Virus record (IMG/VR): IMGVR_UViG_3300033148_008353
Location: 1-39,175 of that record
Length of the DNA stretch: 39,175 nt
Strand: one strand, 5' to 3'
Source of the DNA: a virus
Shown here piece after piece: positions 2,250 to 11,037 of the stretch. Position numbers and translations under genes: made by a program. Positions within the stretch are counted from its first letter, which is position 1. Each line of letters opens with the position of its first letter. The notes under the pieces were generated by a model. The model had not been told where the DNA came from. It did no database searches and worked only from the letters and a program-made list of their open reading frames with translations.

Positions 2250-2458
2250 TTTATCTCCCAGAGTTGAGGCTCTTGGCTATAGTTATCATCATCAATACAA
2301 TCAATGATGCCTCCTCCTCCAAATACTGGGTCCTCATCCTCATCTTTTATCAATGTTGGAGGCTCACGCCATGCCCAGACTCCAGACCAGTCCTGAGTCA
2401 CAAATATTGTCCCTGTTGGATAATCATATTTAGGGAGAGGATTGGATGATAATTTCAT
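2246..2458 (-). CDS. Small acidic hypothetical protein
   Basis: A protein of 70 residues. The ATG at 2458 overlaps the stop of the HD-domain gene (ATGA) and has GGAG 6 bases upstream. A longer frame would start at 2554 but would overlap the previous gene by 100 bases, so I reject it. The protein has an aromatic segment (FVTQDWSGVWAWREPP) and then an acidic tract with repeated Asp/Glu and four Gly. Function unknown. Confidence 0.6.
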   Translation of the reverse strand: MKLSSNPLPKYDYPTGTIFVTQDWSGVWAWREPPTLIKDEDEDPVFGGGGIIDCIDDDNYSQEPQLWEIK

Positions 2459-2967
2459 TGATTGCTCCACAGTTTGAATTGCTCCAGGAATATCCCAGCA
2501 GCTGTTTTGGGATTCCAGGGTTTGATTTTGATGTCCAGAGGCAAATGAGGCCATTGGTCATCATGGACAATGCCTCTCAGCTGTAGCTGCTCAGTGACCA
2601 GAGCTCTGATGTCCATCTCTTTGACTAAACTGTCACACTCCCTAGGTAGTCCAAATTTTAGTCTGACAACAGCTGCAACGTCATCCTCAACCTTTTGATA
2701 GTCAGGGAGTAATAGCTTCAATGGAGCCGTACAGTCCCCAATGTATGCCTCATGAGCATCATGCAACAGCCCCTGGAGTTTCAACTCATCAGGGAGAGCC
2801 TCAGCAACTATGACAGAGTGCTGGGCAACAGAATAGAATTGAGGGACATGGCCAGCATATCTGCATTGATTACTGAGGCTGAGAGCAATGTCCTGGATGT
2901 AAATTGTTGATGCATCTGGATTGTCAAAATCAAACAGATGACCATTGAGTGTCTCAAATGAGCTCAT
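2455..2967 (-). CDS. Nested HD-domain phosphohydrolase (internal start)
   Basis: The C-terminal 170 residues of the HNH-HD fusion can be made alone from an ATG at 2967. AGGAG lies 6 bases before it, among the better ribosome binding sites in the window. The segment starts where stand-alone phage HD hydrolases of the YfbR (5'-deoxynucleotidase) type normally start, with a TLNGHLFDFDNP opening. His194 (QHS), the LLHDAHEAYIGD pair at 213-214 and the later MDIRALVTEQ, numbered in the fusion, are the expected metal ligands. The likely role is nucleotide-pool control, next to ThyX in the same operon. It is either a nested product or a remnant of a formerly separate gene. Confidence 0.6.
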   Translation of the reverse strand: MSSFETLNGHLFDFDNPDASTIYIQDIALSLSNQCRYAGHVPQFYSVAQHSVIVAEALPDELKLQGLLHDAHEAYIGDCTAPLKLLLPDYQKVEDDVAAVVRLKFGLPRECDSLVKEMDIRALVTEQLQLRGIVHDDQWPHLPLDIKIKPWNPKTAAGIFLEQFKLWSNQ

Positions 2968-3399
2968 TGGTTGCTCCTGGTATGGTTGTTTATTATCGGC
3001 ATGTGATGCCCTCCTATAGAATCCCAGAGACTCAGCCTCCAGGATGTTATTTCCCACCCACTCATGACAATTGTGACATGTGCAAATGATATTGTTTTTG
3101 TCAATTGGACTCCCTCCTGGACCTCTGGCAAACCGCTCATGCATCTCAGACCATTTGCCTTGGCATCCAGGAGATTTGATTTCACATGATGGGCCTCTGG
3201 ATAACATCATGAAAATCCTCAGATGTTTCCTAATCATCCAAATCCTCTCCTGTTTTTTCGAGACCTGCCTGATGCGCTTTTTGGTTTTGAGACCTCCAGA
3301 CTGTTTGAGACCTTTGCCCCTGGATATTGGTTTCCCTCTGGACATTGGTTTCCCTGGTTTGAGAGGAGTTTTTCTCTGTAATGGTTTGCCGGGTCTCAC
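2455..3399 (-). CDS. HNH/NinG-like nuclease fused to an HD phosphohydrolase
   Basis: A protein of 314 residues from a GTG start that overlaps the previous stop. Residues 1-50 are a basic Lys/Arg/Gly tail. Residues about 68-130 look like a NinG/HNH-type zinc nuclease: Cys72 and Cys79, HERFARGPGG near 87-96, then a Cys/His cluster at 106-112 and HEW. Residues 145-314 are a complete HD-domain hydrolase with QHS at 193-195, HDAHEAYIGD at 213-222 and a conserved MD at 262-263. NinG-type proteins usually end after the HNH domain and HD hydrolases usually stand alone, so this is an unusual fusion. It couples a possible DNA-cutting domain to a nucleotide-pool enzyme. A strong internal ribosome binding site at the domain boundary may also yield the HD half alone. 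Confidence 0.75.
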   Translation of the reverse strand: MRPGKPLQRKTPLKPGKPMSRGKPISRGKGLKQSGGLKTKKRIRQVSKKQERIWMIRKHLRIFMMLSRGPSCEIKSPGCQGKWSEMHERFARGPGGSPIDKNNIICTCHNCHEWVGNNILEAESLGFYRRASHADNKQPYQEQPMSSFETLNGHLFDFDNPDASTIYIQDIALSLSNQCRYAGHVPQFYSVAQHSVIVAEALPDELKLQGLLHDAHEAYIGDCTAPLKLLLPDYQKVEDDVAAVVRLKFGLPRECDSLVKEMDIRALVTEQLQLRGIVHDDQWPHLPLDIKIKPWNPKTAAGIFLEQFKLWSNQ

Positions 3400-5804: not shown

Positions 5805-6236
5805 TCATTTGCAATATCCCCAGGCAATCAATTTGGCAATCCCTGCCTCAACAGAATCAACAACAGCAACCCTCCTCCCTAATCCATGGAGGATGTCCAA
5901 CTGGTCATGCTGTGCCTGTGAGATTCTGCCTGATGAGGATTTGACCTCTAGATGGGCTCCTGTTGACTCTGGATAGTTGGGAGGGACCTTTGGGAGGTCA
6001 ATGTCTGGCCAGCCTGTTACAGTGCCCAGCTGTTTGTTTCTGCCTGCATACCTGACAGCAATGGCATGAGCCAATTGCCTGCCCTTAGCCTCTCCCAGTG
6101 CTCCAATGAGATGCTGTCTCACAACTCCCATCAACTGCAACTCATTGGGAGAGTGATGATGAGGGATTCTATTCCATGTCATGTATTCAATCAGAGCCAA
6201 ATGGACCTGGGTTTCTGTTTCTTTTTTGACAACCAT
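5805..6236 (-). CDS. VRR-NUC domain nuclease
   Basis: A protein of 143 residues, the usual size of stand-alone phage VRR-NUC proteins. The PD-(D/E)XK core is visible: GWPDIDL at 75-81 with Asp78, then HLEVKSSSGRISQAQ at 95-109 with Glu97 and Lys99. The Ser-Gly-Gln segment after the catalytic Lys is typical of this family, as is the final helix ending in a small beta strand. It likely cuts branched or structured DNA during replication, recombination or packaging. The start overlaps the previous stop (TGATG). Confidence 0.88.
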   Translation of the reverse strand: MVVKKETETQVHLALIEYMTWNRIPHHHSPNELQLMGVVRQHLIGALGEAKGRQLAHAIAVRYAGRNKQLGTVTGWPDIDLPKVPPNYPESTGAHLEVKSSSGRISQAQHDQLDILHGLGRRVAVVDSVEAGIAKLIAWGYCK

Positions 6237-6594: not shown

Positions 6595-6817
6595 CCACAT
6601 TACCCTTTGGCAACCTCAGCCCCCTGGCTCTCCCAGCTTTGACAATTAGGTCTCCATTGGCAACCAGTTTGTCTATATGCAAATTGACTGACTGGACAGA
6701 TTTAAACCCCAGATGGAGTTGGATTTCTCTGTAGGAGGGAGGGTCTCCGGCTTTGAGACGTTTTTTGACATAGCTCAAAACCTTTGCCCTGGATTGTCCT
6801 AGCTTACTAAATGCCAT
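6587..6817 (-). CDS. LexA-type winged-helix DNA-binding domain, no peptidase
   Basis: A protein of 76 residues that aligns by eye with the N-terminal domain of LexA: a first helix ending in VLSYVKKRLKAG, then PPSYREIQLHLGFKSVQSVNLHIDKLVANG and a terminal strand pair with ARGLRLP. In LexA the SREI...GF.S helix reads the operator. The C-terminal self-cleaving domain that normally dimerises LexA is absent. It may act as a monomer, dimerise differently or interfere with host LexA. A promoter with an overlapping inverted repeat (7667-7681) lies just upstream of its operon partner, making autoregulation worth considering. Confidence 0.8.
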   Translation of the reverse strand: MAFSKLGQSRAKVLSYVKKRLKAGDPPSYREIQLHLGFKSVQSVNLHIDKLVANGDLIVKAGRARGLRLPKGNVDV

Positions 6818-7541
6818 TATTCTGACTTTGAATTTGAGTGGCAGGCATTGTCAATACAGTCCCATTGCTAAATTTCATTTTAATTGCTCTCAGATTTGAG
6901 TTGTCAACAACCTCAATCATTTTCCCAGCATGGAATTTTCTAACCCCTGGACCATCAGAGATGATTTTAACCATATCTCCATTGTTTGGTCTGGGAGGCT
7001 CAACTATATCTCCAAACTTTTTGACGAATTTTTTCCAGTAATTTGGGGGCATATAGTCAACAAACAATGTCCCGTTTAAATGGTCAATTTCATGCAGTAT
7101 GACAGCAGCTCCCATACCATTTGTCTCATGAGTGCAATCATTCCCAGCTGGGTCCTGGTATTTGACAACAATCCTCCTGGCTCTGGTTGTTTTGAATTTC
7201 CATCCTGGGATGCTGAGGCATCCATCATCAATGACCTGTAATCCATCAACAGCAACAACCCTGGGATTGACAAAAACCTCTGGGAGTTTGATTGTCTCTG
7301 CACTCTGATTGGTTATAAACATGCTATAGTCCAAACCACACTGGACAGAGGCAATGCCTAGCCAGCCCGTATTTGACATCATTGCTGTATTACTTGCAAT
7401 AGTCCTCATCCCATGAGCCCAGCTCATGATTGTGTCCTCAGTCTGATTGGTCATCTTAGTACTGGGGACTCTCAGCATTGGGTCTGGATATGTAACTATT
7501 TTCAGTGTCTGTGATGGTAATGTATTTGTCAATAATGACAT
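6807..7541 (-). CDS. def: Peptide deformylase with C-terminal extension
   Basis: A protein of 244 residues that removes the formyl group from nascent peptides at the ribosome. All three motifs are present: motif I as LGIASVQ (normally GxGLAAxQ), motif II as DDGCLSIPG (normally EGCLS) with the metal-binding Cys, and HEIDHLNGTLF (HExxH). The catalytic core ends near residue 175; bacterial enzymes are about 170 residues and many phage ones are shorter. The remaining 70 residues form an added beta-rich domain (GDMVKIISDGPG, FHAGKMIEVVDN, SNGTVLTMP) of unknown job. AGGAGAG sits 5 bases before the ATG. The gene follows its own promoter and overlaps the LexA-like gene. In phages deformylase is thought to favour processing of phage or photosystem proteins; its target here is unknown. 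Confidence 0.93.
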   Translation of the reverse strand: MSLLTNTLPSQTLKIVTYPDPMLRVPSTKMTNQTEDTIMSWAHGMRTIASNTAMMSNTGWLGIASVQCGLDYSMFITNQSAETIKLPEVFVNPRVVAVDGLQVIDDGCLSIPGWKFKTTRARRIVVKYQDPAGNDCTHETNGMGAAVILHEIDHLNGTLFVDYMPPNYWKKFVKKFGDIVEPPRPNNGDMVKIISDGPGVRKFHAGKMIEVVDNSNLRAIKMKFSNGTVLTMPATQIQSQNNGI

Positions 7542-9995: not shown

Positions 9996-10288
9996 TTTGC
10001 CGCCTTTACGTGTTTGTATGTTTTGCGCTTGACAATAAAATTGATTGTGGGAGGAGTTGTGTCATATTTGACAGCCAACTCTCTCTGAGTCCATAGTTTT
10101 TTGGCATAGTCTCTGAGGATGAGAGATGCTGTGACATCCCCCAGGTTTGGAGATTTGTTGAGTTGCTGCATGGAATGTTTTGAGATGGCTTTGGAGTTTC
10201 TCCTCACTGGCCTGGATTTTTTTGGCAACTCTGTTCTTGACAGAGCTCTCTGGGCCCTCAAAAAATTATCAATACTATTCTGAGTCAT
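9992..10288 (-). CDS. HTH DNA-binding protein
   Basis: A protein of 98 residues. Residues about 66-95 (WTQRELAVKYDTTPPTINFI, then basic residues) form a clear helix-turn-helix, with a second helix starting TPPTINFI. The N-terminal 45 residues are basic and probably flexible. It starts at ATGA overlapping the methyltransferase stop. Such small HTH proteins often act as transcription regulators or as the DNA-binding part of a nuclease; no nuclease motif is present. Confidence 0.65.
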   Translation of the reverse strand: MTQNSIDNFLRAQRALSRTELPKKSRPVRRNSKAISKHSMQQLNKSPNLGDVTASLILRDYAKKLWTQRELAVKYDTTPPTINFIVKRKTYKHVKAAK

Positions 10289-11037
10289 TCGGTTTCTCCA
10301 CTGAGGAGTTTAAATGCAATTTCCATTGATTGTGGACATTGACCATTTCCAGCGGCTTTAAGTCTGTCCATCCTATTGGCCAACCCATCAGCCACTCCGC
10401 AATAGCTGGTCTCAGTCTGTGGTTTTTCTGACCACACTGGCAACGTCTGCCTACGAACTGAGGCAACGTGTCCTGTGTGCCCTTTGTTATTGGTTTGTTT
10501 GCATAATAATTTGTTATTACGCTCCTTTTCCAATCTGTAGCTGTCGGAGTAGGCCAACACCCAACACCTTTTCCTTTGGTGTGGGGAATTTGCGTCATCT
10601 GCTCCAACAATACCCCATCTAGAAGCATACCCCATTTTGGCAAGGTCACTAATGACCAATGCAAGTCCTCTTGAAATAAGCATTGGTGAGTTTTCCACCC
10701 AAACGAATTTGGGTCTAACTTCACCCACGATTCTCGCCATTTCACTCCATAGCCCAGACCTTTCTCCATCAATTCCGGCTCCTTTACCGGCTGCGCTGAT
10801 GTCCTGACACGGGAATCCTCCAGAAACAACATCAACAATTCCTCTCCATGGGTTTCCGTCAAAGGTGCAAACGTCTGACCATATCGGGAATGTTTCCAAT
10901 GAGCCGTCATTTTGTCTAGCTGCAAGTATGCTAGCGGCTGATTGCTCCCATTCAACTGCACAGACTGTTCTCCATCCAAGCAGTCTCCCTCCAAGTATTC
11001 CACCACCAGCGCCCGCGAATAAAGCCAACTCATTCAT
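10285..11037 (-). CDS. C5-cytosine DNA methyltransferase
   Basis: A protein of 250 residues that transfers a methyl group from S-adenosylmethionine to C5 of cytosine. Motif I is ALFAGAGG at 5-12, motif IV is GGFPCQ at 73-78 with catalytic Cys77, motif VI is WVENSP at 113-118 (normally ENV), motif VIII is QRKRCW at 154-159 and motif X is AAGNGQCPQ near the C-terminus. The enzyme is short (typical 300-400), leaving only about 55 residues for target recognition, so the site is probably short. The gene is not CpG-depleted (22 CpG in 660 bases), unlike the rest of the phage, which suggests recent acquisition. It overlaps both neighbours by 4 bases. Confidence 0.93.
   Translation of the reverse strand: MNELALFAGAGGGILGGRLLGWRTVCAVEWEQSAASILAARQNDGSLETFPIWSDVCTFDGNPWRGIVDVVSGGFPCQDISAAGKGAGIDGERSGLWSEMARIVGEVRPKFVWVENSPMLISRGLALVISDLAKMGYASRWGIVGADDANSPHQRKRCWVLAYSDSYRLEKERNNKLLCKQTNNKGHTGHVASVRRQTLPVWSEKPQTETSYCGVADGLANRMDRLKAAGNGQCPQSMEIAFKLLSGETE

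Follow-up and report, generated by a model that had tools for sequence, protein, structure and literature searches.

An HNH endonuclease and an HD phosphohydrolase are read as one continuous frame in the window, the whole 39,175-base stretch of DNA analysed here (IMG/VR virus record IMGVR_UViG_3300033148_008353, positions 1 to 39,175), and we consider it likely that this frame represents two ordinary genes, the first of which lacks a stop codon, owing either to a recent, real stop loss or to an error in the consensus. The two domains share one frame because the HNH gene has no stop codon. In the arrangement that we favor, a small free-standing HNH endonuclease and a YfdR-type HD phosphohydrolase would have evolved separately and would lie in a tightly packed operon; in this single contig, the HNH frame would meet no stop at its natural end and would continue in frame through the HD gene. 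Translation of the HD protein would start from its own Shine-Dalgarno (SD) sequence and the ATG at 2967, aided by coupling to translation of the HNH gene, and the read-through form would either be a minor side product, if the stop was lost recently, or not exist, if the consensus has a one-base error near the joint.

A preliminary description of this DNA, which did not give the strand, had claimed that an HNH and an HD protein are joined in frame, and this was borne out. The feature lies on the minus strand, its frame of 314 amino acids is uninterrupted, with zero in-frame stops between its start and its terminal TGA, and profiles match both domains, the HD part covering residues 145–314. The frame shares bases with its neighbours at both ends: its GTG start and the stop of the preceding gene form GTGA, and its TGA stop forms ATGA with the ATG at 2458, where a further gene may begin; four-base overlaps of this kind are common at the junctions of this phage, including both outer ends of the fused frame. 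Pfam gave only sub-threshold HD matches and no HNH match for the window protein, and NCBIfam gave zero matches for the fused protein. Also on the minus strand, at 1719–2249, is a DNA methyltransferase-like protein that matches positions 201–373 of the 458 in phrog_799 and is shorter than the family profile.

Table 1 Features of the fused frame and of the joint between its two parts.
Feature	Position	Strand	Basis
Fused open frame, 314 aa	2455..3399	minus	GTG start 3399, TGA stop 2457-2455
HNH gene part, residues 1-144	2968..3399	minus	phrog_15522/phrog_740, conserved residues, model
Conserved HNH core, residues 46-130	3010..3264	minus	relatives' alignments and model
Tandem TAATAA, -1 frame, shortly 5' of the SD	2990..2995	minus	sequence
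Shine-Dalgarno AGGAG of the HD gene	2974..2978	minus	sequence, predicted anti-SD pairing
HD gene ATG start	2965..2967	minus	relatives' start and SD
TGA, +1 frame, overlapping the HD start as ATGA	2964..2966	minus	sequence
HD gene, 170 aa plus stop, YfdR / Atu1052-like	2455..2967	minus	phrog_318, alignment A2, model, 2gz4

Judged from its sequence, the HNH part is a small endonuclease. It matches the phage HNH endonuclease profiles phrog_15522 (E 1e-15) and phrog_740 (E 8e-7); the Pfam cut-offs for HNH (PF01844) and HNH_2 (PF13391) were not reached by the window protein, and its relatives match these families weakly. A basic tail (residues 1–45), a folded core (about 46–130) and a low-confidence tail (131–144) can be distinguished. 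In one alignment of HNH proteins (A1), C72, C79, H87, C108, C111, H112, W114 and G126 are invariant, and in another (A4) the same residues are invariant except C79; compared with the relatives, the zinc cysteines, the catalytic H87 and the CHxW motif are all retained. The small HNH endonucleases of Arthrobacter phages Salgado and Kovu and of Pseudanabaena phage Pan5 (phrog_15522) share these features with the window protein, as well as a C-terminal "A...LG" end, but they are free-standing, reach a stop a few residues past that end, carry no HD domain and have other neighbours.

An alignment combining HNH and HD sequences, intended for a model of the entire fusion, placed the HNH proteins wrongly, and therefore the two parts were folded apart. 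The HNH model has a pLDDT of about 94 in the core and 45–59 in the tail, with the confidence dropping from residue 131, and among solved structures the core had its best matches in CBASS Cap5 and in HNH DNases of the colicin/pyocin type, all of them weak (E 0.13 and above). The HNH gene possibly starts at the ATG at 3345, which has a better SD, instead of the GTG at 3399; the N-terminal tail encoded in this interval (3345–3399, minus strand) is basic, repeat-rich and of low confidence in the model.

The HD part matches phrog_318 over HD-part residues 1–165 (E 1e-65), a family whose label, "deoxyribonucleoside 5' monophosphate phosphatase", is an annotation. Its identity to YfdR-type HD phosphohydrolases of this family (SfV, SfII, ST64B, cdtI and E. 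coli yfdR) is about 43–48%, and these phage and prophage proteins have the same catalytic HD set and the same start position; in the records examined they are always encoded by a separate gene without an HNH domain, whereas the HD of the window is fused. The metal residues H50, H69, D70 and D119 are invariant in the 19 sequences of the HD alignment (A2), as are the supporting residues R36, E73 and D78. The model of the HD part has a pLDDT of 92.5 and matches the solved structure of Atu1052 (PDB 2gz4), an HD protein of unknown function with which it shares the fold over its whole length (TM 0.88, 27% identity) and which, unlike the HD of the window, is a free-standing bacterial protein. The gathering cut-off of the Pfam YfbR-like family (PF12917) was not reached by the HD part (14.0 against 25.9 bits); the 5'-deoxynucleotidase YfbR has HD catalytic residues in common with it, but belongs to a different branch and gave a low structure match (2par, E 0.49). 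Both domains look intact in these alignments and predicted models, and a free HD protein is most likely, by prediction, a metal-dependent nucleotide phosphohydrolase. For E. coli YfdR, nucleotide affinities much lower than those of YfbR and an elusive function are described in a passage of PMC4776307 that refers to Zimmerman 2008.

The join falls at the position expected of a gene boundary. In 19 HNH relatives, all separate proteins, the stop lies 5–30 residues (median 8) past the conserved G126, and in the fused frame the HD methionine lies 18 residues past it. Because the relatives end within this range and the model confidence falls from residue 131, we regard the join as the point at which two complete genes would adjoin. 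Both other frames contain stops at the natural gene-end positions, namely the TAATAA before the SD and the TGA over the HD start, and 8 of the 17 codons preceding residue 145 are one substitution away from a stop; a single substitution or a one-base change in length would therefore suffice to make two genes of the frame. Codon statistics at the joint (0.8, −5.3 and 1.9 for the frames) come from a short stretch and single out no frame.

The stops in the other two frames are what an error in the consensus or assembly would leave behind if two separate genes had lost or gained one base near the joint, and the overlap of TGA with the ATG resembles many junctions of this phage. The ATGA context is common anyway, however, being found at 17 of the 44 assumed starts of the window, and the rest of the 39-kb sequence tiles cleanly with intact genes and has no other evident frameshift, so an error is not specially likely; we see it as a real possibility that falls somewhat short of an even chance. 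A real and recent stop loss, after which the fusion would be translated by read-through, would be selectively neutral and would leave the HD protein supplied from 2967, fits the clean contig, the near-stop linker codons and the retention of the SD and start. It is a comparably strong candidate, again below an even chance, but from the sequence alone it looks the same as a consensus error. The odds between the two are about equal.

The preliminary description had also noted an AGGAG and ATG at 2967, and these were confirmed with good spacing. The sequence there reads AACCATACCAGGAGCAACCA-ATG, with 6 nt between AGGAG and ATG, and the predicted anti-SD pairing is −6.6 kcal/mol, compared with a median of −5.8 over the 44 assumed gene starts of the same window; only 5.4% of 148 internal in-frame ATGs reach this strength. 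The strength of the SD supports but cannot prove a start at 2967, because another ATG in the same frame, at 3237, has a stronger pairing (−7.4). Homologous HD proteins begin at the residue equivalent to the ATG at 2967 (alignment A2), and this is stronger evidence than the SD. Given the start of the HD relatives and a start signal typical for the phage, we consider it very probable that the HD gene truly starts at the ATG at 2967, and we infer that translation begins there. Homology, the SD site and the gene boundary thus lend good support to the suggestion that a free HD protein is made; production of both a fusion and a free HD protein is possible if the sequence is exact.

The same join was found in no other sequence that we searched. 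By tblastn, 289 of 50,697 phage records and 141 of 72,556 plasmid records had a match, and in neither set did any record cover 80% of the query in one place. No relative emerged from viral_contigs when the whole protein was used; scans with the HD part and the HD alignment gave 73 and at least 80 loci, respectively, and a scan with the HNH alignment gave at least 80 loci; in genome_contigs the sole relative was a 41-residue HD-only match. When HMMs for both domains were applied to the loci listed, 159 other HD loci and 86 other HNH loci, none had both domains in the same frame or in the locus and its flanks, and only the window had HD and HNH together. The scans use peptide patterns and the loci are among those listed, so rare distant fusions could be missed. 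A PF01844 HNH was present in 7 of 39 HD records, in another open frame and kilobases from the HD gene by contig position, and the collections searched contained no near relative that could show separate genes in this lineage.

Two sets of seeming HNH-HD alignments were rejected. The Rhizobium NLR16a and Xanthomonas pLM159.1 plasmids appeared to span both parts in a single tblastn piece, but in both the HD gene is separate, the overlap lies within unrelated genes and HNH was undetected. Alignments of phage Eeyore and a Vibrio phage starting from residues 119–133 were chance extensions into the upstream gene.

That the two protein types are normally separate, as the preliminary description had stated, is thus true in every relative examined; that description had itself named consistently separate genes in relatives as grounds for refutation, and this check counts against a functional fusion. 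The lack of any relative with the join makes a recent stop loss or a one-base consensus error the probable explanation, and we infer a recent or artefactual origin. An established HNH-HD fusion family would have the join in at least one independent relative, and the phage, plasmid and contig searches gave none.

It was nevertheless considered whether the frame could encode a functional two-domain HNH-HD enzyme, accompanied by free HD and used together with it in nucleotide or DNA metabolism. The open frame, a plausible linker and two intact active-site sets are consistent with such an enzyme, as are two nearby genes, whose products belong to a thymidylate synthase family and a "nucleotide kinase" family. 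Yet no relative has the join, the loci examined do not place HNH and HD genes next to each other, a fusion would have no need of a strong SD at the joint, and some free HNH proteins have natural tails at least as long as the linker; we regard this explanation as unlikely. More doubtful still is a bifunctional enzyme whose internal start adds free HD, so that one gene would supply a DNA-cutting nucleotidase and its free partner. The proposal that the protein degrades host DNA and filters the nucleotide products was not supported, the join being unique to this contig and the genes not being neighbours elsewhere in the loci examined; it is further weakened by the putative nature of the substrate and activity of this HD branch and by the low affinities of YfdR given in the passage of PMC4776307. 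Cooperation between the HNH and HD proteins likewise finds no support.

A fusion that is real and maintained would unite two domains in a new pairing, with DNA cleavage coupled to nucleotide turnover and two products arising through an internal start. As matters stand, the case serves as a caution: when a fused frame is known from one metagenomic contig, has no relatives and carries a complete start signal at its seam, the best interpretation is two genes.

Several other genes of the window were identified on the minus strand. A peptide deformylase is encoded at 6807–7541 (PF01327, E 6e-33), and a protein at 5805–6236 has a weak match to the VRR-NUC nuclease (PF08774, below the cut-off) and a match to phrog_824. 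At 10275–11037, two long frames overlap almost completely: a C5 cytosine methyltransferase at 10285–11037 (PF00145, E 3e-32; phrog_363, E 5e-62) and, in the +1 frame at 10275–11033, a second protein of 252 amino acids that matches phrog_1008 (E 2e-19). The second frame is found in other phages at about 28–43% identity (48 records matched, 21 of them with 80% coverage or more). In Manatee Spring phage MW202462, this frame runs without a stop across almost the entire methyltransferase gene. In synonymous resampling, the second frame stayed open in 0.005% of trials, and the overlap looks like true dual coding.
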